From Limimaricola pyoseonensis (GTDB lineage: Bacteria > Pseudomonadota > Alphaproteobacteria > Rhodobacterales > Rhodobacteraceae): a stretch of DNA of 64,000 bases. Below the pieces are notes generated by a model. The model saw only the letters and a program-made list of their open reading frames with translations. It did not search any database and was not told where the DNA came from. The translations under genes and the position numbers were made by a program. Location: NCBI RefSeq assembly GCF_900102015.1, contig NZ_FNAT01000002.1, forward strand, positions 124,001 to 188,000. The letters run 5' to 3'. Of the stretch, positions 6,789 through 63,775 are shown one piece after another. The first letter of the stretch is position 1, and every line of letters begins with the position of its first letter.

Positions 6789-9601
6789 GACAGCGCCCTC
6801 CGCGCACCCGCCTCGATCGCCTCGCGCAGCCGGCGCTCCAGCGCGCGCTGCTTGGTCTCGGAATGGTATTTCAACCCGAACATGTCCTTCACGTAGAATG
6901 TATCGACCGCCTGCTCGCCATAGGTCGCGATGACGGCGGAGGAAATGTAGACGTTGGAGGAGGCCAGCGTCCGGGTCAGGTCGTAGAGCAGGCCCGGCCG
7001 GTCGCGCGTGTCGACCTCGATGATGGTGAAGATGTCGGAGCCCTCGTTGTCGAAGGTGATCGAGGTCGGCACCCGGAAGGCGCGCTCGCGCTTGCGGATC
7101 TTGTCGCGGCTCTTGATCGCGTCGCGCGCCACCACCTCGCCGCGCAGGGTCTTGCCGATCATCTCCTTGAGCCGGGGCAGGCGCTCTTCCTCGTAGGGGT
7201 GGCCCTCGGCGTCCTGCACCCAGAACACCGCCGTGCACATCCCGTCCTTGGCGGTGTAGGTGCGCGCGTCGACGATGTTGGCGCCGACCAGCGCCAGCGC
7301 CCCGGTGAGCCGCGAGAACAGCCCCGGATGGTCGGTGGTGGCAAAGCTCACCCGGGTCGCGTCGCGGTCGGCGTCGGGCTTGAGGTCGGTGCGGATGTCG
7401 TCGGCCTCGAGCCCGCGCAGCAGCTGCGCGAAGAGCACGTGGCTGTCCTGCGGCAGGCCCTGCCAGTAGGGCCCGTAATGCCGCCCCGTCTCGGCCCGGA
7501 CCTCGGCGGCGGGCCAGTCCGACAGCGCCGCGCGCAGGGCCCGCTTGGCCTCGGTCTCGCGCGAGCCGCGGCTCAGATCCTCGAGGCCGTTGGCAAGCGC
7601 ATGCGCGGTCGCGGCGTAGAGGTTGCGCAGCAGCATCGCCTTCCAGTTGTTCCAGGTGCCGGGGCCGACGCCGCGGATGTCGCAGACCGTGAGCACGCAG
7701 AGCAGGTCGAGCCGCTCCTTGGTCTTCACCGCGCGGGCGAAGTCGCGCACCGTGCGCGGCTCGGCGATGTCGCGCTTCTGCGCCATGTCCGACATCAGCA
7801 GGTGGTGGCGCACCAGCCATTCGACCGTGTCGCTGTCCTTGCGCGACAGCCCCAGCCGCGGCGCGACCCGCCGCGCGATCTGCGCGCCGAGCACGGAATG
7901 GTCCTCGTCGCGGCCCTTGCCGATGTCGTGCAGAAGCAGCGCCACGTAGAGCACCTTGCGGTTCACCCCGGCCTTGAGGATGCCCGAGGCCACCGGCAGC
8001 TCCTCGACCAGCTCCTCGCGCTCGATCTGCGCCAGCGTGCTGATGCATTGGATGGTGTGCTCGTCCACCGTGTAGTGGTGGTACATGTTGAACTGCATCA
8101 TCGCGACGATCGGCGCGAATTCGGGCAGGAAGGCCGACAGCACGCCGAGCTCGTTCATCCTTCTCAGTGCCCGCTCGGGGTTGCCGTGCTTGAGCAGCAG
8201 GTCGAGGAAGATGCGGTTGGCCTCGCGGTTCTCGCGCAGCGTCGCGTCGATCAGCTGCAGGTTGGCGGCCACCATCCGCATCGCGTCCGGGTGCAGCAGG
8301 TGGCCGGTGCGCAGGCTCTCGTCGAAGATCCGCAGAAGGTTCAGCGGGTCCGACAGGAAGGTCGCCTCGTCGCCGATGTCGAGCCGGTTCTGGGTGATCT
8401 TGTAGGGCGCGCGGGCGCGCCGGCGCCGCGCGAAGAGCCGGGTCAGCATCGGCTCGGATTTCAGATGCGTCGCCTCCTGCGCGGTCAGGAAGATGCGGCT
8501 CAGCTCGCCCACCCGCGTGGCATGGCGGAAGTAGTCCTGCATGAAATGCTCGACCGCGCGGCGACCGCCGCCGTCGAGATAGCCCATGCGCTCGGCCACC
8601 TCGACCTGCATGTCGAAGGTGAGCTGGTCCATCGCCCGGCCGGTGATCAGGTGCAGGTGGCAGCGCACCGCCCAGAGGAAATCCTCGGCACGGGCGAACT
8701 CGGAGAATTCCTCCTCGGTGAAGACGCCCTCGGTGACCAGCTCGGCCGCCTCGCGCACGTCGTAGACATACTTGCCGATCCAGTAGAGCGACTGCAGGTC
8801 GCGCAGGCCGCCCTTGCCCTCCTTGACGTTGGGCTCGACCACGTAGCGCTGGCCGCCCTGCTTGACGTGCCGCGCGTCGCGCTCGGCGAGCTTGGCCTCG
8901 ATGAAGGCGGCCTTGGTGGTGCGGAACAGCTCGGAGCGCAGCCGCTCGCGCAGGCTTTCGGCGAGCGCCGTGTCGCCGTCGAGATGGCGGCATTCGAGCA
9001 GCGCGGTGCGGATGGTGTGATCCTCCCGCGCCAGCCGCAGGCAGTCCTTCACGGTGCGGCTGGCATGGCCGACCTTCAGCCGCAGGTCCCACAGCATGTA
9101 GAGCATCGATTCGATGACGCTCTCGGCCCAGGGGGTGATCTTCCACGGCGTCAGGAACAGCAGGTCGACATCCGATTGCGGCGCCATCTCGCCGCGCCCG
9201 TAGCCGCCCACGGCCAGCAGCGACAGCCGCTCGCCCTCGGTCGGGTTGGGCAGCGGGTGCATCCGCAGCGCCACCTCGTAGCAGGCGGTGACGATCCGGT
9301 CGGTGAGCCAGGCGTAGGAGCGGGTCACCGGGCGGGCGGCGAAGGGGCGGTTGGCGAAGGCCTCGGCGATCGCGGCATGGCCGGCCTTGCGCGCCGCGCC
9401 GAGGCACTGCACCACGGCGCGCCGCGCGGCCATCGCGTCCTCGGCCCGCTCCAGGTCGGCCGCCAGCGCGGCGGCGATCCGGGTGGCGTCGAATATGTCG
9501 CGCGCCGGAAGGATCAGATCCTCCGGCGCGTCGGTCGGTTCGAGATTCAGCGTGGGCCGGTCAGAAACCGGCGCCGCGGAAGCTTGCGGGTGCGGGGTCA
9601 A
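6785..9601 (-). CDS. glnD: [Protein-PII] uridylyltransferase/uridylyl-removing enzyme
   Basis: 938-residue nitrogen sensor that uridylylates PII proteins when glutamine is low and removes UMP when it is high. The nucleotidyltransferase motif GGYGRGEMAPQSDVDLLFL is near residue 130. The HD hydrolase domain has HHYTVDEHTIQ near 510 and LLHDIGKGRDEDH near 555. Two C-terminal ACT domains begin near 750 (TTDHPGLFSRLTGAL) and 858 (TRDRPGLLYDLTRTL). The best start is a TTG at 9601 with AGGTGG upstream, overlapping the preceding lipoprotein gene by 41 bp; no ATG or GTG occurs before the conserved N-terminal region. It is co-transcribed with murJ. Confidence 0.95.
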   Translation of the reverse strand: MTPHPQASAAPVSDRPTLNLEPTDAPEDLILPARDIFDATRIAAALAADLERAEDAMAARRAVVQCLGAARKAGHAAIAEAFANRPFAARPVTRSYAWLTDRIVTACYEVALRMHPLPNPTEGERLSLLAVGGYGRGEMAPQSDVDLLFLTPWKITPWAESVIESMLYMLWDLRLKVGHASRTVKDCLRLAREDHTIRTALLECRHLDGDTALAESLRERLRSELFRTTKAAFIEAKLAERDARHVKQGGQRYVVEPNVKEGKGGLRDLQSLYWIGKYVYDVREAAELVTEGVFTEEEFSEFARAEDFLWAVRCHLHLITGRAMDQLTFDMQVEVAERMGYLDGGGRRAVEHFMQDYFRHATRVGELSRIFLTAQEATHLKSEPMLTRLFARRRRARAPYKITQNRLDIGDEATFLSDPLNLLRIFDESLRTGHLLHPDAMRMVAANLQLIDATLRENREANRIFLDLLLKHGNPERALRRMNELGVLSAFLPEFAPIVAMMQFNMYHHYTVDEHTIQCISTLAQIEREELVEELPVASGILKAGVNRKVLYVALLLHDIGKGRDEDHSVLGAQIARRVAPRLGLSRKDSDTVEWLVRHHLLMSDMAQKRDIAEPRTVRDFARAVKTKERLDLLCVLTVCDIRGVGPGTWNNWKAMLLRNLYAATAHALANGLEDLSRGSRETEAKRALRAALSDWPAAEVRAETGRHYGPYWQGLPQDSHVLFAQLLRGLEADDIRTDLKPDADRDATRVSFATTDHPGLFSRLTGALALVGANIVDARTYTAKDGMCTAVFWVQDAEGHPYEEERLPRLKEMIGKTLRGEVVARDAIKSRDKIRKRERAFRVPTSITFDNEGSDIFTIIEVDTRDRPGLLYDLTRTLASSNVYISSAVIATYGEQAVDTFYVKDMFGLKYHSETKQRALERRLREAIEAGARRALS

Positions 9602-52255: not shown

Positions 52256-53346
52256 TGCCCGGACCCATGGGCGCCGCCGCCCGCGCCGAGGCGGCGCGGC
52301 TCTCGGCGCTGTTCGAATCCGTCGGCGCGCAGGCGGTCGACACCTCGATCCTGCAGCCCGCCGACGTGCTGCTCGACCTCTATGGCGAGGACATCCGCGC
52401 GCGCGCCTACGTCACCGCCGACCCGCTCAGGGGCGAGATGATGCTGCGGCCGGACTTCACCGTGCCGGTGGTGCGCGCCCACATGGAAGAGGGCGGCGAC
52501 CCGGCGCGCTACACCTATGCCGGCGAGGTGTTCCGCCGGCAGGAGACCGACCCCGACCGGCCGATCGAGTTCCTGCAGGTCGGCTTCGAGCTGTTCGGCG
52601 GCGACCCGGCCGAGGCCGATGCCGAGGTCTTCGCGACCATCGCAGGCGCGCTGTCGGGTCTCGACCTGCGGCCCTCGACCGGCGACATCGGCATCCTGAT
52701 GGCGGCGGTGCGCGGCTTGCAGACCAGCGACGCCCGCAAGGGCGCGCTTTTGCGCCACATCTGGCGGCCGCGCCGCTTCCGGGCGCTGCTCGACCGCTAC
52801 AGCGCCCGCACGCCGCTGCCCGCGCACAAGAAGACGCTGCTCGCCGCCGCCGACCCGTTCAAGGAGGCCGGGCCGCAGGTCGGCGTCCGCAGCCGCGCCG
52901 AGGTCGCGGACCGCATCAGCACGCTGCGCGAGGACGCCGACACCCGCCCGCTCTCCGAGGAGGAGACGGCGCTGATCGACATGATCCTCGACCTGCGCGA
53001 GACCGCGCCCAACGTGCTCTCGGCGCTGCGCGACATCGCCGTCGACATGCCCGCCATCACCGAGGCGGTCTCGGGGCTGCGCCGCCGGCTCGACGCGCTC
53101 TCGGCGCGCGGGGTGGATGTCGACGCGCTGCCCTTCGAGGGCAGCTTCGGCCGCACCACGCTCGAGTATTACGACGGCTTCGTCTTCGGCTTCCAGCATG
53201 CCAGCCGCGCCGACCTGCCGCCCGTCGCCACCGGCGGGCGCTACGACGCGCTGACCCGCGTGCTGGGGCAGGGGCGCTCGGTCGCCGCGGTGGGCGGCGT
53301 GGTCCGCCCCGAGCTTGTCGTCCGCATCAGGGAGGGCCGGGCATGA
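52252..53346 (+). CDS. hisZ: ATP phosphoribosyltransferase regulatory subunit
   Basis: 364-residue histidyl-tRNA-synthetase paralogue lacking the anticodon-binding domain. [62 protein letters not shown] and [17 protein letters not shown] are the retained catalytic-domain blocks. It forms a hetero-octamer with short HisG and is required for activity and feedback inhibition by histidine. Overlaps hisS and hisG through ATGA on both sides. Confidence 0.94.
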
Positions 53347-54035
53347 CGATCCGTCTCGGCGTGCCGTCCAAGGGACGGCTGATGGACAAGACCTTCGACT
53401 GGTTCGGCGCGCGCGGCCTGACCCTGCGCAAGAACGGCAACGACCGCGAATATGCGGGCGTGGTCGAGGGCATCGGCGGGGTCGAGCTGGCGCTGCTGTC
53501 GGCGGGCGAGATCCCGCGCGAGCTGGCCGCGGGCCGGCTGCATCTGGGCGTCACCGGCTCCGACCTCGTGCGCGAGAAGGTGGCCGGCTGGGACCTGCGC
53601 CTGCGCGAACTGGCGCGGCTCGGATTCGGCGGGGCGGATCTGGTGATCGCGGTGCCGCAGGGCTGGGTCGATGTCGACACGCTCGACGATCTCGACGCGG
53701 TCGCCGCCGCCTTCCGCCGCCGCCACGGCTTCAGGCTGCGCATCGCCACCAAGTATCACCGGCTGACCCGCGAGTTCCTGAAGGAGCACGGCGTGGCCGA
53801 CTACCAGCTGGTCGACAGCCAGGGCGCGACCGAGGGCGTGGTCCGCAACGAGACCGCCGAGGCGATCTCCGACATCACCTCGACCGGCGAGACGCTGCGC
53901 GCCAACGGGCTGAAGATCCTCTCTGACGGGCTGATCCATTCCAGCCAGGCGACTCTGTTCCGCTCGGGTGCGGCGCAATGGAGCGAGGCGCACCGCGCCA
54001 CGCTCGAGGCGCTGGAGGAAAAGCTCGGGATCTAG
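53343..54035 (+). CDS. hisG: ATP phosphoribosyltransferase, short catalytic subunit
   Basis: 230-residue short-form HisG, the first enzyme of histidine synthesis (ATP + PRPP). [20 protein letters not shown] opens the protein; HLGVTGSDLVREK and the PRPP loop EAISDITSTGETLRANGL are present. The C-terminal regulatory domain of long HisG is absent, consistent with hisZ next to it. Stop shares CTAG with the convergent DUF1489 gene. Confidence 0.95.
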   Translation: MTIRLGVPSKGRLMDKTFDWFGARGLTLRKNGNDREYAGVVEGIGGVELALLSAGEIPRELAAGRLHLGVTGSDLVREKVAGWDLRLRELARLGFGGADLVIAVPQGWVDVDTLDDLDAVAAAFRRRHGFRLRIATKYHRLTREFLKEHGVADYQLVDSQGATEGVVRNETAEAISDITSTGETLRANGLKILSDGLIHSSQATLFRSGAAQWSEAHRATLEALEEKLGI

Positions 54036-54565: not shown

Positions 54566-54666
54566 AGGCGTGCTATGCTGGTCTATATCCAGCGTCGACG
54601 GTGGAGCGACTGCCGCCCCCGATCTTGATACATTCCAGACCCCGCCCCAGCCGAAGGATCGCTGCC

Positions 54667-56943
54667 ATGACCCGTTTTTCCGCGCCCATCGCCGAACAGA
54701 TCTGGGACATGAAATATCGGTTCAAGCAGAGCGACGGCACGCCGATCGACACCAGCGTCGAGGACAGCTGGCGCCGCATCGCCCGCGCGCTCGCCGCGCC
54801 CGAGAAGGACCCTGCCCACTGGGAGGAGAAGTTCTACGGCGCGCTCGAGGATTTCCGCTACCTGCCCGCCGGCCGGATCACCGCCGGCGCCGGCACCGCG
54901 CGCGCGGTGACGCTGTTCAACTGCTTTGTCATGGGCACCGTGCCCGATTCGATGTCGGGCATCTTCGACATGCTGAAGGAAGCGGCGCTGACCATGCAGC
55001 AGGGCGGCGGCATCGGCTACGACTTCTCGACCATCCGGCCGCGCGGCGCCGAGGTGAAGGGCGTGGCGGCCGACGCCTCGGGCCCGCTCTCCTTCATGGA
55101 TGTCTGGGACGCGATGTGCCGCACCATCATGTCGGCGGGCTCGCGCCGCGGCGCGATGATGGCGACGATGCGCTGCGACCACCCCGACATCGAGAGCTTC
55201 ATCACCGCCAAGTCCGACCCGGCCCGCCTGCGCATGTTCAACATGTCGGTGCTGGTGACAGACCCGTTCATGGAGGCCGTGAAGGCCGACGGCTCGTGGG
55301 ACCTCGTCTTCAAGGACAAGGTCTACAAGACCGTGCAGGCGCGTGACCTGTGGAACGCGATCATGAAGTCGACCTACGACCAGGCCGAGCCGGGCGTGAT
55401 CTTCATCGACCGCATCAACCAGATGAACAACCTCGGCTACTGCGAGGAGATCTCGGCCACCAATCCCTGCGGCGAGCAGCCGCTGCCGCCCTACGGCGCC
55501 TGTCTGCTGGGCTCGATCAACCTCGCCAAGCTGGTGAAGAACGCCTTCGAGAAGGGCGCCAAGCTCGACGAGGCCGAACTCGACGATCTCGTGGCCCTCG
55601 CGGTGCGGATGATGGACAACGTCGTCGACGCCTCGAACTTCCCGCTCGAGGCGCAGGCCGAGGAGGCCCGCAACAAGCGCCGCATCGGCCTCGGCGTCAC
55701 CGGCCTTGCCGACGCGCTCTTGATGGTCGGGCTGCGCTACGGCTCGGACGAGGCCGCCGCCCAGACCGAGGCCTGGATGAAGCGCATCGCGCGCGCCTCC
55801 TACCTCGCCTCGGTGGAGCTGGCGAAGGAGAAGGGCGCCTTCCCGCTGTTCGACGCCAAGAAGTACCTCGCCTCGGGCAACATGCAGCAGATGGACAAGG
55901 ACGTGCGCGACGCGATTGCCAAGCACGGCATCCGCAACGCGCTGCTGACCTCGATCGCGCCGACCGGCACCATCTCGCTCTACGCGGGCAACGTGTCCTC
56001 GGGCATCGAGCCGGTCTTCGCCTATGCCTACACCCGCAAGGTGCTGCAGAAGGACGGCACCCGCACCGAGGAAGAGGTCGTCGACTACGCCGTGCAGGCC
56101 TGGCGCGAGAAGTTCGGCGATGCCGAGCTGCCGGACTACTTCGTCAACGCCCAGACGCTGAAGCCGATGGAGCACGTGAAGATGCAGTCGGCCGCGCAGA
56201 AGTGGATCGACAGCTCGATCTCCAAGACGATCAACTGCCCCGAGGACATTTCCTTCGAGGACTTCAAGGACGTCTACATGGAGGCCTACGAGACCGGCTG
56301 CAAAGGCTGCACCACCTACCGGCCGAACGACATCACCGGCTCCGTGCTGTCGGTCTCCGAGCCCGCCAAGGCGCCCGAGGCCAAGACCGCGCCGAAGGAG
56401 GCCGAGGGCGGCGAGGTGATCTACATGTCCGAGCCGCTCGACCGCCCCTCCGAGCTCGAGGGCGCGACCTACAAGCTGAAGTGGCCCGACAGCGAGCACG
56501 CGATCTACATCACCATCAACGACCTGGTCGTGGGTGGCCATCGCCGGCCCTTCGAGGTGTTCATCAACTCGAAGAACATGGAGCATTTCGCCTGGACCGT
56601 GGCGCTGACGCGGATGGTCTCGGCGGTGTTCCGGCGCGGCGGCGACGTGTCCTTCGTGGTCGAGGAGCTGAAGGCGGTGTTCGACCCGCGCGGCGGCGCC
56701 TGGATGCAGGGCAAGTACGTGCCCTCGATCCTCGCGGCGATCGGCGGCGTGATCGAGAAGCACATGATCTCCACCGGCTTCCTCGCCGGCGAGGGCATGG
56801 GCCTGAAGGAGGACCCGCAGCAGCAGGTGGTCAACCTCGACGCCCCCCGCGGCCCGGCCTGCCCCTCCTGCGGCAGCTTCGAGATGCGCATGGTCGAGGG
56901 CTGCATGACCTGCGGCAGCTGCGGCCACTCCAAGTGCGGCTGA
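54667..56943 (+). CDS. nrdJ: Adenosylcobalamin-dependent (class II) ribonucleotide reductase
   Basis: 758-residue enzyme making deoxyribonucleotides with a B12-generated thiyl radical, oxygen-independent. Active-site cysteines: RAVTLFNCFVMGT, and NPCGEQPLPPYGACLLGSINL with the radical-bearing Cys. SIAPTGTISLYAGNVSSGIEP forms the substrate loop. The C-terminus carries GCKGCTTYRPN and a Cys-rich tail (CPSCGSF...CMTCGSCGHSKCG) for thioredoxin-type re-reduction. ATG at 54667. Depends on cobalamin, two late synthesis genes for which are in this window. Ends at a strong terminator after a 118-bp untranslated stretch. Confidence 0.96.
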   Translation: MTRFSAPIAEQIWDMKYRFKQSDGTPIDTSVEDSWRRIARALAAPEKDPAHWEEKFYGALEDFRYLPAGRITAGAGTARAVTLFNCFVMGTVPDSMSGIFDMLKEAALTMQQGGGIGYDFSTIRPRGAEVKGVAADASGPLSFMDVWDAMCRTIMSAGSRRGAMMATMRCDHPDIESFITAKSDPARLRMFNMSVLVTDPFMEAVKADGSWDLVFKDKVYKTVQARDLWNAIMKSTYDQAEPGVIFIDRINQMNNLGYCEEISATNPCGEQPLPPYGACLLGSINLAKLVKNAFEKGAKLDEAELDDLVALAVRMMDNVVDASNFPLEAQAEEARNKRRIGLGVTGLADALLMVGLRYGSDEAAAQTEAWMKRIARASYLASVELAKEKGAFPLFDAKKYLASGNMQQMDKDVRDAIAKHGIRNALLTSIAPTGTISLYAGNVSSGIEPVFAYAYTRKVLQKDGTRTEEEVVDYAVQAWREKFGDAELPDYFVNAQTLKPMEHVKMQSAAQKWIDSSISKTINCPEDISFEDFKDVYMEAYETGCKGCTTYRPNDITGSVLSVSEPAKAPEAKTAPKEAEGGEVIYMSEPLDRPSELEGATYKLKWPDSEHAIYITINDLVVGGHRRPFEVFINSKNMEHFAWTVALTRMVSAVFRRGGDVSFVVEELKAVFDPRGGAWMQGKYVPSILAAIGGVIEKHMISTGFLAGEGMGLKEDPQQQVVNLDAPRGPACPSCGSFEMRMVEGCMTCGSCGHSKCG

Positions 56944-57810: not shown

Positions 57811-58695
57811 TCAGACCTGGTTCAGCACCCAGTTGCGGAACATCTGGACGCGGGGCAGGTCCGTCTTGTCCCAGGGGGTCACGAGATAGTACCCGCCGGG
57901 GCTGACGACCCGGACGGGGAACGGCGCGGTCAGGCTGCCATTGGCGATGTCGTCGTCGGCGAGGTATCTCGGCAGGAGCCCGATCCCCAGCCCCGACTTG
58001 GCGGCCTGCAGAACCATGTAGAAATGCTCCAGCCGCAGGGTCTTGTCGTAGCCGTCGGTGCCGGCACCCACGGCCTGCAGCCAGTGGGACCATGTGCCGG
58101 GGCGCGAGGAATGCGCGATCAGGCTGTGCCGGCGCAGCTGGTCGTAATCGGTCAGGGGGTAGGGGCCGTCCATGATCCGGGGCGAGCAGACGACCTGCAG
58201 CTCCTCCGACATCAGGGGCTCGGCCCGCGCGTCGGGCCAGTTGCCGTAGCCGAAGCGGATCGCCACGTCGATTCCCTCGTCGGCGAAGGCGAGATCGCCG
58301 TCGCTGCTCGTGATGTCGACGGTCAGCTCCGGGTGCAGCTGCATGAAGGAGCCGAGGCGGGGCAGCAGCCATTTCGTGCCGAAGGTGGGCAGCATGCCGA
58401 CGCTGAGCGTGCCGCGCCCGGCCCGGGTGTCGATCAGCTCGCGCGAGGCGCCTTCGAGGATGTCCATCGCCTTGGAGATCTTGCCGGCGTAGTAGACGCC
58501 GTCTTCGGTCAGGCTGATCTGCCGGCCGGCGCGCTGGAACAGCTGCAGCTCGAGATGCTCCTCCAGCCCCTTGATCATGCGGCTGACGGCGCTTTGCGTC
58601 ACGTTCAGCTCTTCGGCGGCACTGGTGAAGCTGCCGTGCCGGGACACGGCCTCGAACGTCCTCAGGGCGTTCAGGGAGGGAAGGGCGCGGCTCAT
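57811..58695 (-). CDS. LysR-family transcriptional regulator (GcvA-like)
   Basis: 294 residues. Helix-turn-helix: LPSLNALRTFEAVSRHGSFTSAAEELNVTQSAVSRMIKGLEEHL. The effector domain has GRGTLSVGMLPTFGTKWLLPRLGSF and AIRFGYGNWPDARAEPL; the subgroup resembles GcvA/AmpR-type regulators. ATG at 58695 is preceded by GGAATACAGG. It is divergent from, and separated by 117 bp from, the four-gene cluster that follows, so it is the likely regulator of that cluster, responding to an unknown metabolite. Confidence 0.93.
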   Translation of the reverse strand: MSRALPSLNALRTFEAVSRHGSFTSAAEELNVTQSAVSRMIKGLEEHLELQLFQRAGRQISLTEDGVYYAGKISKAMDILEGASRELIDTRAGRGTLSVGMLPTFGTKWLLPRLGSFMQLHPELTVDITSSDGDLAFADEGIDVAIRFGYGNWPDARAEPLMSEELQVVCSPRIMDGPYPLTDYDQLRRHSLIAHSSRPGTWSHWLQAVGAGTDGYDKTLRLEHFYMVLQAAKSGLGIGLLPRYLADDDIANGSLTAPFPVRVVSPGGYYLVTPWDKTDLPRVQMFRNWVLNQV

Positions 58696-58812
58696 CCTGT
58701 ATTCCAAAAACTCATTAAAGCACCAGAATTTCGCAGGTTGAGACGCTAGTCAATTCCGGCCGATCCTGTCCTCGAAACAGTGTTGCCGCGACGGCATGAC
58801 GGGAAACCGACC
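58696..58812. promoter_or_regulatory. Divergent promoter region of LysR gene and four-gene cluster
   Basis: 117 bp; the LysR-proximal 58701-58731 stretch is strikingly A/T-rich for this window and contains ATTCC...GGAAT-like half sites (ATTCC and CAGAATTT). A LysR operator (T-N11-A) is expected here but I cannot single one out. Confidence 0.5.
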
Positions 58813-59991
58813 GTGAACCTCAGCAAGATCACATACAGCCTGACCGCGGTCGCGATGGGCATTCATGCCCTCGAACGCCAGAGAAACGACGGCAACAGCC
58901 TGCTGGATGGCGAGGGCCTTGTCCCGATCTACACCGGCGGCGACATGGTGGCCCCGCGCCGCTACGAGGATTGGGACACCGCGCGGCGCGAACTGCTGCA
59001 GCTCGAGGCCGCGCTGGGCGGTATCGCGCCGGGGGAACGGCGCACATTCCTTGAAGGAATGATCGCATCGCTGCTTCTGGCGGTGCGGCTGTTTTCCGGG
59101 GGCAGCCCGACCTACGAGCAGAAGGTCATGGGGCTGGTCGGTGCCGATCGCGGGCACGAGGATGCGGGCATGATCGCCGGCTGCCGCGACCGCATCGACC
59201 GGCTCCTGACCCGGATGGGCTTCGTGCGCGGATCGCTGGCCGACAGGGTGCGGTCGTGGGAGGACGCCCGCGCCATCGACGAGGGCCGGCTGGACGCCGC
59301 CCTGGCCGAGCTGGTGGCCGAGGCCAAGCGCCGCACCGACGAGATGATCTTCGATACCGGCGACTTCACGATGGAGATCCGCCCGGTGCGCGACGTGCCC
59401 TACCCGGCATGGTGCGGCTTCGCCGAGCGGCGGGTGGACCTGAACGTCGACATGATGTTCTCGCGCGCCGGGCTGAAGCACATCATCTGCCACAACATCT
59501 TTCCCGGCCACGCGACCCAGGCGCTCTACGCCCATGCCGAGGTCGCGGCGGGGCGCTCGACCGTGGACGCGCTGCTCATCTCGGCCAACGCCGTCACCGG
59601 CTGCGTGCAGGAGGGCATCGGCGATCAGGGCATCTACCTGATCGACTGGATGGAAGACGAGGACGACGAGCTGACGGCGGAGCTGCGCAACCTGCGCTCC
59701 GCCTGCCAGACCAGCGCCACATGGGCCTACATGGCCGAGGGGCAGTCGGCCGAGCGCACGGTGAACTACCTGCGCGACACGGCGCTGGGGCAGGATGCGT
59801 GGGTGCGCGGCCGCCTGCGCTCGGCCGCGCATCCGTTCAAGGGCCCCTTCGCCGCCTCGTTCTGGACGGGCAACGAGGTGGTGCGCCGCGTGCGGGAGCG
59901 GGTGTCCGACGCCCATCGTCCCGAGTTCATCCGATACCTGTACGGGCGGGCGCACAGCCCCCGGAGCCTGGAAATGTACCAGCCAGCTTAA
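58813..59991 (+). CDS. Divergent DUF885-like protein with HNxxPGH in place of HExxPGH
   Basis: 392 residues, no signal peptide. The only strong signature is HNIFPGHATQ at 227-236, which aligns position by position with the HExxPGHxxQ zinc motif of DUF885 peptidase-like proteins, but Asn228 replaces the catalytic Glu. A candidate third ligand is Glu267 in VQEGIGDQGIYLIDW. The C-terminal part (LRSACQTSATWAYMAEGQSAERTVNYL, FWTGNEVVRRVRERV) vaguely follows the family's helical layout. The start is uncertain: GTG 58813 (GGGAAA upstream) is preferred, TTG 58780 possible. First gene of the cluster; next gene 15 bp on. Assignment to the family is by motif only. Confidence 0.6.
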   Translation: MNLSKITYSLTAVAMGIHALERQRNDGNSLLDGEGLVPIYTGGDMVAPRRYEDWDTARRELLQLEAALGGIAPGERRTFLEGMIASLLLAVRLFSGGSPTYEQKVMGLVGADRGHEDAGMIAGCRDRIDRLLTRMGFVRGSLADRVRSWEDARAIDEGRLDAALAELVAEAKRRTDEMIFDTGDFTMEIRPVRDVPYPAWCGFAERRVDLNVDMMFSRAGLKHIICHNIFPGHATQALYAHAEVAAGRSTVDALLISANAVTGCVQEGIGDQGIYLIDWMEDEDDELTAELRNLRSACQTSATWAYMAEGQSAERTVNYLRDTALGQDAWVRGRLRSAAHPFKGPFAASFWTGNEVVRRVRERVSDAHRPEFIRYLYGRAHSPRSLEMYQPA

Positions 59992-60006
59992 CCACCGGAG
60001 ACATAG

Positions 60007-61089
60007 ATGAAGATGACAATCGTTGGCGCCGGCGCCATCGGCGGGCTTGCGGGCGCGTACATGACCCGTGCCGGACATGATGTGACGCTGACCGACCGCT
60101 GGGCCGAGCACGTGGACCGGATGAAGGAGCGCGGCCTGTTCATCGACGGCGTTCGCGGCGAGATGACGATCCCCGTCAGGGCGCTGCACCCCTCCGAACT
60201 CGAGGCCCCGCTCGACATGGTGCTGATCGCCACGAAATCGCAGCACGCGGTCGAGGCGGTCGAGCAGCTGGCCCCGCTGATGACGGCCGACACCGCCGTC
60301 GTGTCGTTCCAGAACGGCTTCAACGAGCCGGCCCTCGTCGCGGCGCTGAACGCCGCGGGCCTGCCCGGCGACAGGATGGTGATCGGCGCGATCCCGAACT
60401 ACGGCGGCGCGCTCGTCGATCCCGGCTACATCGAATACGTGCATGAAGGCCCGATCCAGCTGGGCGAGATGGATGGAAGCTCGACCCCGCGCCTGAAGGC
60501 GCTGGCCGAGGCGCTGGGCGCGCTGACGGAGGTGCAGCTTTCCGACAAGATCTGGGGCCAGATCTGGGCCAAGGAGGTCTATGCCAGCCAGGTCGTCTTC
60601 TCGGCGCTGGTGGATGACCGCATCCGCAACACGCTGGGCGTCGAGCGCTACGCCCGGATCGCCGGGGCGATCGTCAAGGAGGCGCTGGAGATCGCGGATG
60701 CCAACGGCATCGACGTGCAGGCCTTCGATTTCTTCGACCCGGCCAATTACCGCGTCAGGACCGCCGACGACACGCGCAAGCTGCTCGACAACATCAACCA
60801 CGCGATCTGGCTTCTGAAGAAGGACCAGGACACCAAGCCGACCCACGACTTCAAGAAGAAGGGCTCGGGCATCTGGTGGGACATCGTCTACCGCAAGCGC
60901 CCGTCCGAGACCCGGTCGTCGTCGGGCAAGCTGATCGATTACGGCAGGGCGGCGGGGGCCGACACGCGGCTCAACGCCAAGCTCTTCGACATGATCTACG
61001 AGATCGAGGACGGCAAACGCGCGCTGGGCTTCCACAACTACGACGAGCTCGAAGCCTATGTCGCCGAATGCGGAAAGGCCCTGCCATGA
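60007..61089 (+). CDS. Ketopantoate reductase-family (PanE/ApbA fold) dehydrogenase
   Basis: 360 residues. NAD(P)-binding MTIVGAGAIGGLAGAYMTRAG, then SFQNGFNEPALVAAL (the NG motif) and IWGQIWAKEVYASQVV, where the Lys matches the catalytic Lys of PanE. The C-terminal catalytic region departs from PanE: the usual Ser...Glu pattern is replaced by THDFKKKGSGIWWDIVYRKR, and the protein is about 60 residues longer than typical PanE. A substrate other than ketopantoate is therefore likely; related proteins act on opine-like or other 2-oxo/2-hydroxy acids. ATGA overlap with the next gene. Confidence 0.8.
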   Translation: MKMTIVGAGAIGGLAGAYMTRAGHDVTLTDRWAEHVDRMKERGLFIDGVRGEMTIPVRALHPSELEAPLDMVLIATKSQHAVEAVEQLAPLMTADTAVVSFQNGFNEPALVAALNAAGLPGDRMVIGAIPNYGGALVDPGYIEYVHEGPIQLGEMDGSSTPRLKALAEALGALTEVQLSDKIWGQIWAKEVYASQVVFSALVDDRIRNTLGVERYARIAGAIVKEALEIADANGIDVQAFDFFDPANYRVRTADDTRKLLDNINHAIWLLKKDQDTKPTHDFKKKGSGIWWDIVYRKRPSETRSSSGKLIDYGRAAGADTRLNAKLFDMIYEIEDGKRALGFHNYDELEAYVAECGKALP

Positions 61090-62195
61090 GCGCGGCGAGA
61101 CTTGGCGTCGGGGTGATCGGCACCCATGCCTGGGCCGACAAGGCGCATCTGCCGGGCTACGTCGCGCATCCCGATGTCGACCTCGTGGCCGTCTGCGACG
61201 TGGATGAAGGCCGGGCCCGCGCGGCGGCCGAGAAATTCGGCGCGCGCAAGGTCTTCACCGACGCGCAGCAGATGATCGCCGACCCCGAGGTGCAGATGGT
61301 CGATGTCTGCACCCCCACCCACACGCATCTGCCGCTCAGCCTCGCGGCGATCGCGGCCGGAAAGCACGTGCTGTCTGAAAAGCCCCTGCACACCGAGGCG
61401 GGCCCGGCCTTCGACGCCGCCGCCCGGGCCGATGCGCGCGGGGTGCGCACCAAGCTCGGCTTCACCTTCCGCTATTCCCCGGCGATCCGGCAGCTCAAGG
61501 CCTGGATCGATGACGGAACGCTGGGCGAGATCTTCCACATCAACGGGTTCGAGCAGAACTCGCAGTGGCTGCACCCCGACGAGCCGCTGCGGCAGGTGCC
61601 GCCCGACGCGGACCGCTCGACGCTGATCCCGGCCTCGATCGTCGGCTACGGCTCGCATCTGATCGATCTGATGCGCTGGCTGGGGGGCGAGTTCTCGGCC
61701 GTGGCCTCCTCGATGCGGAACTTCGTGCCCGAACGGGTGGTACGCGGCGAGGCGGGCCGGCAGAAGATCATGATCGACGACGGCACGGTCGGGCTGGTGG
61801 AATATACCGGGGGCGCGCTGGGCACGATCCAGACCAGCTACGTCACCGTCGGCAACTACCCGGGCGTGGAGATCCGCGTCTACGGCTCGAAGGGCGCGGC
61901 GGTGGCGCGGCTGATCTCCGAGTTCGACGTGGCCGAGACCCTGACCCATGCCAGGCCGGACGCGGTGGAATTCGTGCCCTACGAGCTGACCGAGGCGGCG
62001 CTGCCGCCCGGCACCACGCTCGCCACCCCCTGGCCCGAGCTCTACTACCGCAACCTCGTGCGCCATTTCGTGGACGAGATCCTGCAGGACAGGCCGCAGG
62101 AATGCACCTTCTTCGACGGCGCCAAGAGCCAGGAGATCGTCGATGCGATGATCCTGGCCCATCGCGAACGCCGCTGGGTGGGCTTGGGCGCATGA
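61086..62195 (+). CDS. Gfo/Idh/MocA-family oxidoreductase
   Basis: 369 residues. Rossmann opening LGVGVIGTHAWADKAHLPGY (GxGxxG partly altered to GVIGTHA), VDVCTPTHTHLPLSLAAIAAGKHVLSEKPLHTE with the EKP catalytic Lys, and C-terminal GYGSHLIDLMRWLGGEFSAV holding the conserved Asp/His. The family oxidises or reduces sugar, inositol and related alcohols or ketones with NAD(P). Coupled by ATGA to genes on both sides, so it must work in the same pathway. Confidence 0.88.
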   Translation: MSAARLGVGVIGTHAWADKAHLPGYVAHPDVDLVAVCDVDEGRARAAAEKFGARKVFTDAQQMIADPEVQMVDVCTPTHTHLPLSLAAIAAGKHVLSEKPLHTEAGPAFDAAARADARGVRTKLGFTFRYSPAIRQLKAWIDDGTLGEIFHINGFEQNSQWLHPDEPLRQVPPDADRSTLIPASIVGYGSHLIDLMRWLGGEFSAVASSMRNFVPERVVRGEAGRQKIMIDDGTVGLVEYTGGALGTIQTSYVTVGNYPGVEIRVYGSKGAAVARLISEFDVAETLTHARPDAVEFVPYELTEAALPPGTTLATPWPELYYRNLVRHFVDEILQDRPQECTFFDGAKSQEIVDAMILAHRERRWVGLGA

Positions 62196-63775
62196 CGGGG
62201 CTGGTGGGCGACTACCTCGCGCATCGCTTCCGCTGGCGGCCGGTCGACGCCAGCTTCATGGGGGCGGAGGGGCACGATCACCGGCTGCCGCCGGTGGAGC
62301 CCGGCTGCATCGAAGCCGAGCTGGAGGAGATCCGCGCCCTGCACGAGAAGGCCGCGCGGGACGGTGCGGCCCATCCCCACGACCGGCGCATGATCGCGGC
62401 GGAGATGCGGGTGGAGGAGGCGAACCTCGAGAGCCGCCCGCGGCAGAGAAACCCGGCCTGGGCCACGGGCGAGGCGGGCTTCGGCGTGATCTCGCTGCTG
62501 CTGCCGCAATCCACGCCGTGGCGGCGCGACGCCATCGCGGCCCGGCTCGCGGCCATCCCCGCCTTCCTGGACGGGGTCCGCGCCCTGATCGGCGACGGCC
62601 CGGTGCCGCGGGGCTGGTGCGAACGGGCGATGACAGAGGCGGCGGCGCTGTCGCTGTTCCTGCGCGAGGACATGCGCCTGCACGAGGCGTGGCTTGCCGA
62701 CTGGGCGGCCCCGGCCGAAGCGGCGGCCGAGGCCTTCGACGGTTTCGCCGCCTCTCTAGCGCAGCTGCCCGACGCCGATCCGGCCTGCGGAACGGTGCAT
62801 CTGGAGCTGGTCCTGCGCGAACTGCACGAGCTGCCGCTCGGCGCGGACCGGGCGATGGAGGCGGCCCGCGCGGCCTTCGAGCGCTGCGGCACGGAACTGG
62901 AGGAGATGGCCGCCCGGATCGACCCCGACACCGGCTGGCAGGATCAGCTCGCCGCGCTGGCGGACATGCATCCCGCCGCGGCCGACGACGTGATCGCGAG
63001 CTACCGCCTCTGGGACGCGGCGGCGCGCGACGCCGCCGAGACCCACGGGCTGGTCACGCCGGATGACGGCTACGGGCTGGATTACCGCCCGCTGCCCGCC
63101 TGTTTCCGACGCGTGGCCGGGCCGCTCTACTTCCTGTTCTACCGCTCGCCGCCGGGGCTGAACCCCGGATCGGGCAGCGTCTACTGGGTGATGTCCGCGG
63201 CCGATCCGTTGGCGCATGGCACGGCCATGGTCAAGGCGATCCACGCCGTGCACCACGGCTCGGTCGGACACCACACCCAGAACGGCCGCGCCCGGGCGGC
63301 GGCCTCGCGGCTGGGCCGGATCGCGGCGACCGACTGCGCCATGGGCCTGGCGTTCCAGGGCGCGCTGACGCTGGTGGAAGGCTGGGCCTGCCATGTCGAG
63401 GACCTGCTGATGGAGGCCGACGGCTTCTATTCCCCGGCGGAGAAGCTGCTGCTGAAATCCTTCGAGCGGCGCAATGCCGCCTCGGTGCTGGTCGATCTGG
63501 GCCTGCACAGTGGGGCGTGGTCGATGGCCGAATGCGAACGCTTCTATGCCGAGGAGGCGGGCTTCGCCCCGGCGCGCGTGCATTCCGAAGTGGTGCGCAA
63601 CTCCATGTTCCCCGCCTCGCGCGCGACCTACTGGCTCGGGGTCGAGGGTATCCGCGCCCTGCGCCGCCGCTGGACAGGCACGACGCGGGCCTTCCACGAC
63701 ACGCTCCTGTCCTTCGGCCACGTGCCGCTGAAGCTCGTCGAGGACGAGATGGCCGCCCGGGGGCTGCTGCAATGA
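62192..63775 (+). CDS. DUF885-family protein with HHxxVGH in place of HExxPGH
   Basis: 527 residues, no signal peptide. The C-terminal third matches DUF885: motif HHGSVGHHTQ (354-363), VEGWACHVEDLLMEADGFY with Glu396 as third zinc ligand, ERRNAASVLVDLGLHSGAWSMAECERFYAEEAGF, and HSEVVRNSMFPASRATYWLGVEGIRALR. Both zinc His (354, 360) and Glu396 are kept, but His355 replaces the catalytic Glu and Val358 the Pro. DUF885 members are predicted metallopeptidases of the cytoplasm; this one probably binds metal but uses other chemistry. Overlaps the MocA-type gene by ATGA; last gene before the window's end. Confidence 0.78.
   Translation: MTGLVGDYLAHRFRWRPVDASFMGAEGHDHRLPPVEPGCIEAELEEIRALHEKAARDGAAHPHDRRMIAAEMRVEEANLESRPRQRNPAWATGEAGFGVISLLLPQSTPWRRDAIAARLAAIPAFLDGVRALIGDGPVPRGWCERAMTEAAALSLFLREDMRLHEAWLADWAAPAEAAAEAFDGFAASLAQLPDADPACGTVHLELVLRELHELPLGADRAMEAARAAFERCGTELEEMAARIDPDTGWQDQLAALADMHPAAADDVIASYRLWDAAARDAAETHGLVTPDDGYGLDYRPLPACFRRVAGPLYFLFYRSPPGLNPGSGSVYWVMSAADPLAHGTAMVKAIHAVHHGSVGHHTQNGRARAAASRLGRIAATDCAMGLAFQGALTLVEGWACHVEDLLMEADGFYSPAEKLLLKSFERRNAASVLVDLGLHSGAWSMAECERFYAEEAGFAPARVHSEVVRNSMFPASRATYWLGVEGIRALRRRWTGTTRAFHDTLLSFGHVPLKLVEDEMAARGLLQ

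Follow-up and report, generated by a model that had tools for sequence, protein, structure and literature searches.

A LysR-linked operon of Limimaricola pyoseonensis that pairs a Gfo/Idh/MocA dehydrogenase with a DUF885 protein carrying histidine in place of the general-base glutamate

Proteins of the DUF885 family (PF05960) are placed, in the passages of PMC12572635 that concern them, among the HExxH proteins of the Peptidase_MA clan. The titles of the solved DUF885 structures (3iuk, 3u24 and 3o0y) name no function, and no tested function for the family turned up in our searches of the open-licence PMC literature. Here we describe an operon lying in a 64,000-nucleotide stretch of the Limimaricola pyoseonensis genome (the window, meaning that stretch at its full length), in which a gene for a LysR-type regulator stands divergent from four genes, A to D. 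The last of these encodes a DUF885 protein whose general-base Glu has been replaced by His with the metal ligands kept, and which we never found without the dehydrogenase encoded by C.

The described systems closest to this arrangement are those in which a substrate is first oxidised and then cleaved by elimination. Levoglucosan dehydrogenase and DgpA are described, in PMC7676230 among other papers, as oxidising a sugar carbon, after which the next enzyme eliminates a bond. The Lgd (LgdA/LgdB1/LgdB2/LgdC), DgpA/CGE and AtOGE systems have one logic in common: a ketone is produced by a dehydrogenase, which belongs to Gfo/Idh/MocA for DgpA and is a flavoenzyme in Agrobacterium, and the next enzyme eliminates. 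The CGE and AtOGE eliminases are described as metal enzymes with a catalytic His, and for AtOGE the mechanistic part of PMC10628242 proposes that the metal polarises the keto group and that His134 takes the proton.

The features of the locus, in positions of the window, are as follows.

57811..58695, minus strand: LysR-type regulator of the GcvA-like subfamily (PF00126 and PF03466; ATG at 58695), divergent from the operon
58696..58812, no strand: region of the divergent promoter; two blocks in it are conserved, ATTCCAAAAACTCAT (58701-58715) and GTCAATTCC (58749-58757)
58813..59991, plus strand: A, 392 amino acids, by its sequence a remote DUF885 relative; HNIFPGH replaces HExxPGH, and the third-ligand motif QEGIGD is kept
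60007..61089, plus strand: B, 360 amino acids, NAD(P)-dependent dehydrogenase of the PanE/ApbA fold (PF02558 at 5.5e-32, PF08546 at 1.1e-7)
61086..62195, plus strand: C, 369 amino acids, Gfo/Idh/MocA dehydrogenase (PF01408/PF22725/PF02894; EKP motif; conserved H191)
62192..63775, plus strand: D, 527 amino acids, DUF885 (PF05960); HHGSVGHH, predicted ligands H354, H360 and E396, H355 replacing Glu, C400 four residues after E396

The coordinates bear out the layout that had been drawn from the letters and open reading frames of the window (hereafter the sequence-only reading): the LysR gene is divergent from four rightward genes, A (ending at 59991) is separated from B (starting at 60007) by a gap of 15 base pairs, and ATGA overlaps join B to C (61086-61089) and C to D (62192-62195). 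The motifs given there for the two outer proteins, HNxxPGH in A and HHxxVGH in D, are likewise present, as HNIFPGH and HHGSVGHH. Alignment with homologues makes GTG 58813 the likely start of A, GTG 58780 being a possible earlier one.

D was compared over 18 loci (the window, L018-L023, L050, L024, L025, L026-L028, L030, L031, L046, L047 together with L089, and L092) and A over 15 (the same set minus L046, L047 and L092). Duplicates were excluded, namely L032 (a second Ensifer strain with the same matches) and L048, L049, L051 and L052 (contigs of L021, L022, L023 and L018, respectively).

The altered metal site of D and its partner dehydrogenase C

D matches PF05960 over the whole length of the model (158.1 bits against a cut-off of 32.4); the window's genome (3.9 Mb) has no other match to the family at E 0.001, and all 14 D homologues scanned match it as well. 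DUF885 crystal structures are the best fold matches of its predicted model (predicted local distance difference test, pLDDT, 74.9; Foldseek TM ~0.7 to 3iuk), and the family shares with D the same three metal ligands. In a hidden Markov model alignment with 3u24 the HH of D falls on HE. A search of phage records returned no match to D at E 1e-5.

In 18 of 18 D proteins (the window's included), ranging from Alphaproteobacteria to Deinococcus, the motif reads HHGS[VI]GHH, with His in place of the general-base Glu and with PGH turned into VGH or IGH. As a control, 100 genomes of the phylum were searched with PF05960, giving 39 matches besides the window's, 29 of which were fetched; the motif is HE in all 28 where it could be read, the 29th being a motif-less fragment below the cut-off. 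H354, H360 and E396 are identical in the 17 aligned D proteins and in the 28 canonical DUF885 proteins, and D is predicted to bind its metal through them. D departs from the canonical set in the change of E to H355 (28/28), L to C400 (27/28), R to N428 (27/28), A to R477 (26/28) and Y to N470 (24/28). Eleven residues (H354, H355, G356, S357, G359, H360, H361, T362, E396, C400 and D404) are invariant in the 14 aligned D proteins from two phyla, and C400, four residues after the ligand E396, would face the metal. The sequence-only reading had described a zinc motif that lacks its general base and had proposed a non-peptidase, metal-dependent reaction; the base is lost and the ligands are kept in all 18 D proteins, and the type of reaction is something that we infer.

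Could D, despite its ligands, be a pseudo-enzyme, a non-catalytic partner of C that binds metal and serves to bind the substrate or to shield it, the A protein of the window's clade (with HN instead of HE, see below) being another? Both lack the Glu needed by HExxH peptidases, and D evolves faster than its neighbours (median ratio of nonsynonymous to synonymous substitution rates, dN/dS, within the window's clade of 0.222, compared to 0.110 for B and 0.109 for C, with 0.155 for A; 15 pairs each, computed by NG86, the synonymous sites being much diverged and the figures rough). On the other hand, the 11 residues kept invariant across two phyla exceed what a passive scaffold would need, and we consider this explanation unlikely. 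Decay or sequencing error as the source of the Glu losses is very improbable: the loss of a catalytic residue is a classic sign of a dying enzyme, and one plasmid carries a broken B, but the same residues recur across independent genomes (6 loci with HN, 18 with HH) under purifying selection. Decay of the cluster was rejected on the median dN/dS values of 0.11-0.22 within the window's clade, which bear out the earlier opinion that the Glu losses are not due to it.

C is present in 18 of 18 D loci, adjacent to D in 17 of them; in the genome G642 the two genes lie at the ends of two contigs. With the window's own genome counted, D was found in 3 of 385 genomes sampled across the class, in 6 of 394 from the window's family and in 3 of 7 from that of G446. 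Close C homologues (E 1e-90) occur in 1 of 398 genomes sampled across the phylum and in 4 of 295 from the window's family, always in D carriers and again with the window's own counted; the genome samples for C and D were not identical, and in the large ones scoring was confined to a few top candidates from each genome. Neither C nor D was found in G845, a genome of the same genus.

A search of genome contigs with A gave six loci, each with B, C and D in an unchanged order and LysR divergent (the LysR gene of L018 is truncated by the contig end); by record title they belong to Primorskyibacter, Oceanicola, Marinibacterium, Pseudoponticoccus, Pseudoroseicyclus and a Rhodobacteraceae metagenome-assembled genome. 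We take the five named genera to be Rhodobacteraceae and the six organisms to be marine; the A homologues in named relatives are 83-88% identical to the window's. A collection of 72,556 plasmid records gave 15 matches to A: eight cover 95% or more of its length at 45-54% identity, five from Neorhizobium are at 30-31%, and two are partial. At least 80% of the D query is covered in 8 of 24 records, and 8 of 316 records for B and 8 of 1,661 for C are 60-80% identical, after which identity drops to 35% and 31%, respectively. The accessions are the same eight for all four genes: two of Ensifer adhaerens, one of Lichenicola cladoniae and five of Deinococcus, where A is divergent from an importer-B-C-D block. 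The cluster is spread over scattered, distantly related bacteria, and the putative catabolic pathway would be common to Rhodobacteraceae, Ensifer, the lichen-derived Lichenicola and Deinococcus. The Limimaricola operon itself lies on a 763-kb contig; the copies found in Ensifer, Lichenicola and Deinococcus are on plasmids, plasmids being all that was searched there.

Co-occurrence across genomes, which had been put forward as a check of the four-gene set, was borne out by these plasmid records, each holding all four genes, but not by three genomes of one family (G446, G642 and G1118), which have C and D and no A detectable genome-wide at E 1e-10. The same A model does detect A in the window's genome, and the completeness of the three is 95%, 89% and 97%, respectively. 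A close B is absent from G446 and G642 (best matches of at most 218 bits, on other contigs) and was not found in G1118 within 20 kb around C-D. Because of these three genomes without detectable A, C and D appear as the core; judging by gene content, the minimal unit is C, D and the importer described below, with A and B as a frequent extension.

The Pfam scores of C are 85.8 bits for PF01408, 71.3 for PF22725 and 62 for PF02894; the EKP motif is present in all 15 rows compared and H191 is invariant in 14 of 14 aligned. Its best NCBIfam model is NF052479, levoglucosan dehydrogenase (139.7 bits, far under the cut-off of 650), and its nearest solved sequences are 4h3v, 6a3f, 4fb5, 4gqa and 7xr9. 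The last of these is DgpA, and 6a3f, listed as 'Putative dehydrogenase', is presumably levoglucosan dehydrogenase. Since levoglucosan dehydrogenase and DgpA act in oxidise-then-eliminate pathways, and since D keeps its metal ligands, has His for Glu and is never found without C, our preference goes to a scheme in which C might oxidise and D eliminate, a division of labour that is possible by analogy and that we advance tentatively.

A doubtful extension of the same idea is that D founds a new class of metal-dependent lyases on the DUF885 fold, obligately associated with C, and that A in one Rhodobacteraceae clade is on the same road. If so, a protease site that activates water would have become, through the Glu to His change, an eliminase site that abstracts a proton, within a widespread, undescribed pathway for a peptide-like natural compound. 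A precedent for such a change from peptidase to lyase is DddP, the dimethylsulfoniopropionate lyase of Roseobacter denitrificans, which is a metal-dependent lyase on a metalloproteinase-like fold according to the part of PMC4108388 that describes it. DddP differs from D in its fold, in its binuclear metal site and in belonging to an unrelated family. We take its fold to be that of M24. The D subfamily, with its base replaced in every copy seen, its ligands kept and C always at hand, offers an entry point both to chemistry on the DUF885 fold and to a putative catabolic pathway.

Glutamate and asparagine in the remote relative A

The sequence-only reading had taken both outer genes for DUF885 members, which is true of D, over the cut-off, and does not extend to A. 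For the window's A, a threshold as loose as E 1 brings no Pfam match, and PF05960 at the same threshold is matched by 10 of 14 members of the A family, the best at 3.1e-5. Because of this absence in the window and weakness in its relatives, A is, by sequence comparison, a remote relative of DUF885 rather than a clear member. Nor are the Glu losses of A and D, which that reading had paired, equivalent: the HN motif of A occurs in 6 of 15 loci (the window and L018-L022, a single Rhodobacteraceae clade), whereas HExxPGH is kept in the other nine (L023, L050, Ensifer, Lichenicola and five Deinococcus). With the loss in A limited to the window's clade, most copies of the operon therefore hold one Glu-less protein.

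HE is also found in the distant A homologues of Neorhizobium and Tsukamurella and in 15 of 15 further A-like proteins, so that Glu is most likely, on this comparison, the ancestral state. Fixed differences between the HN and HE groups affect 12 of 386 sites in A, compared with 2 of 355 in B, 2 of 368 in C and 1 of 506 in D (comparing A with the other three, Fisher p 5.6e-5; since all these sites lie on a single branch of a single tree, the figure describes more than it tests). The branch between the two groups has a length of 0.44 for A and of 0.10, 0.13 and 0.09 for B, C and D, some inner supports being low. This long branch, the 12 fixed sites and a within-clade dN/dS of about 0.16 indicate that A went through one fast change in the window's clade and was then constrained again. 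The importer type tracks the A motif: the binding proteins of the six HN loci are 88-100% identical to the window's, and those of the nine HE loci 57-70% identical to that of Ensifer (itself the reference). The Glu to Asn change and the importer switch may have been a single event, so that the link between them is only a correlation. The HE-versus-HN variation of A in otherwise alike operons amounts to a natural experiment on the role of the catalytic Glu.

On two Neorhizobium galegae plasmids (L029 12034-13260 and L033 11998-13179) an A homologue of 30-31% identity has an intact HEAFPGH motif. It stands after ABC importer genes, M24-type peptidase genes, an aspartoacylase-type gene (annotated in L029, recognised by eye in L033) and an amidohydrolase gene (PF01979, with a match to the XaaProDiPepCaul model below its cut-off). 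The A family serves here in another, distinct catabolic cluster.

Importer, accessory genes and a proposed pathway

Just past the end of the window lie genes for a GhrA-type 2-hydroxyacid reductase (PF02826), a binding protein, a permease, an ATPase and an M20 peptidase, for which the finer name PepT was assigned by eye. A peptide-type (Opp/Dpp-like) importer adjoins 18 of 18 D loci; one binding protein of each type was scanned and belongs to PF00496, the homologue of the window's being represented by that of L018. In the genomes with C and D only, the binding protein is of the window type in G642 and G1118 (57-59%) and of the Ensifer type in G446 (68%). The neighbours in G642 and G1118 include a CN_hydrolase, an S15-type hydrolase and a second importer; the stretch seen in G446 holds C, D and the importer only. 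At least 10 of the 18 D loci have a further complete peptidase or amidase gene beside them (the search was for the families named here, over stretches several of which are short): M24 and M29 in 5 of 5 Deinococcus loci, M20 in L049 and in the window's genome, GGT in Lichenicola, and CN_hydrolase with S15 in G642 and G1118. An M20 gene is also present in L048 and L052, cut by the stretch ends. GhrA stands beside 10 of 15 A loci, the five Deinococcus loci all have RraA, SDR and IclR genes besides M24 and M29, and a VOC gene occurs in the Ensifer, Lichenicola and Pseudoroseicyclus loci. An importer together with hydrolases and oxo-acid enzymes makes this the layout of a catabolic operon, and judging from gene content the locus is quite probably an import-and-catabolism cluster.

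Class I/II aminotransferase genes also adjoin the operon in L019 (6731-8988, by Pfam), L021 (7806-9044) and L050 (16601-17821, as in L021 by homology); L019 has an aspartate dehydrogenase-type gene (PF01958) too. In G1118 two TauD-family dioxygenase genes (L092 1244-2245 and 2248-3138) lie upstream of C-D.

The main rival of the oxidation-elimination scheme is that D is still a hydrolase, with H355 serving as general base by the metal, so that A and D would be amidases or peptidases acting on an imported peptide and B and C would process the parts. Ligands kept in 18 of 18 proteins, an importer of peptide type and the peptidases and amidases (M24, M29, M20, GGT, S15, CN_hydrolase) already mentioned would all fit, but a simple base swap does not account for the near-fixed DUF885 positions that are altered as well (N470, N428 and R477), and D is always accompanied by the dehydrogenase C, the peptidases varying among loci. 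We regard this alternative as possible, short of likely.

That the cluster detoxifies, or confers resistance to, a peptide-like natural product instead of feeding on one is improbable in our view. Its patchy, often plasmid-borne distribution would suit such a role, and an antibiotic could be inactivated by two redox enzymes acting with hydrolases; just beyond the importer in G642 (L047 7244-9486) stand genes for an MFS and an EamA transporter, no systematic search for exporters having been made. An importer at every locus, with GhrA, RraA or aminotransferase genes at many, fits nutrition better.

Returning to oxidation followed by elimination, the pathway would run as follows. The substrate would be a small peptide-like or amide-linked compound with an oxidisable hydroxyl, taken up through the peptide-type ABC (ATP-binding cassette) importer encoded just downstream of the window. 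C would oxidise a secondary alcohol of it with NAD(P)+; in D the metal would hold the new carbonyl and His355 would act as the base, so that the activated bond is broken by elimination or related lyase chemistry rather than by peptidase-like activation of water. B may carry out a second redox step on the hydroxy- or oxo-acid-like part, and the GhrA-like enzyme would reduce the released 2-oxo acid. A would be an amide or peptide metallohydrolase in most lineages, its job having been changed or taken over in the window's clade upon the Glu to Asn change. Taken as a whole (a LysR-controlled catabolic operon with an importer, oxidation by C, cleavage by D, redox steps by B and GhrA and a hydrolase origin of A), this is the best explanation we can offer, albeit one to which we would give slightly less than even chances. 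Pantothenate, opines, Amadori compounds and mycosporine-like amino acids were considered as substrates and dropped for lack of evidence.

Several observations weigh against this pathway. Peptide-type importers also carry non-peptides, and at 8 of the 18 D loci no further complete peptidase or amidase gene came to light, within the limits of the search given above. In the D model pLDDT falls below 50 at residues 344-350, which immediately precede the motif, and at 379-387, and the AlphaFold model of A, built on a 7-row alignment, reaches 42.7. Judged by its sequence, C could have any of many Gfo/Idh/MocA activities. The known 3-keto-glycoside beta-eliminases are, in the portion of PMC10628242 that treats them, triose-phosphate isomerase (TIM) barrels, a fold unlike that of D; the present operon differs from the Lgd, DgpA and AtOGE systems both in the peptidase fold of D and in the peptide type of its importer. 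The plasmid of Deinococcus sp. D7000 does carry a xylose-isomerase-like TIM-barrel gene (PF01261, AP_endonuc_2) and a second Gfo/Idh/MocA gene (L030 22435-24587), both some 9-11 kb past A and apparently in a sugar operon of their own; among the part of the open reading frames that was scanned, no TIM-barrel eliminase gene was recognised adjoining C in any locus. As the sequence-only reading had supposed, no characterised pathway with the LysR-A-B-C-D gene set surfaced in our searches of the open-licence PMC literature, which does not prove its absence from print.

Dehydrogenase B and the regulatory region

B has both domains of PanE/ApbA (2-dehydropantoate 2-reductase). The QNG motif is present in all 14 rows compared, as is the Lys of the WxKE segment. 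On the other hand, B scores under the cut-off of TIGR00745 (128.2 bits against 141.35) and, among the best 25 of 40 model matches, further below those of the other pantoate reductase models, and in alignment with 8wl3 it lacks the Asn four residues after the Lys, which we take to be substrate-binding in pantoate enzymes. On the plasmid of Deinococcus sp. KNUC1210 (L031, about 6849-7940) B is broken into three tblastn pieces, the record annotating a single hypothetical protein there; A, C and D match there along their full length.

The LysR protein exceeds the cut-off of NF008352 GcvA (310.1 bits against 288), and a homologue precedes A in 10 of 10 proteobacterial A loci (the L018 copy again truncated). 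In the five Deinococcus loci no close LysR homologue was found, and the IclR gene adjoins A there. The intergenic regions between LysR and A were aligned with MAFFT (8 regions, L024 being excluded as too long). A search of these regions for a T-N11-A LysR box gave nothing common, and no sigma-70-like promoter was found in the divergent region. The two blocks of the promoter region are near-identical in all six HN loci; two HE loci share the first (58701-58715), L050 identically and L023 in part. The blocks between LysR and A are possible candidates for the LysR operator. Upstream in the window, genes that by eye resemble hisG and ribonucleotide reductase (53343-54035 and 54601-56943) are unrelated to the operon.

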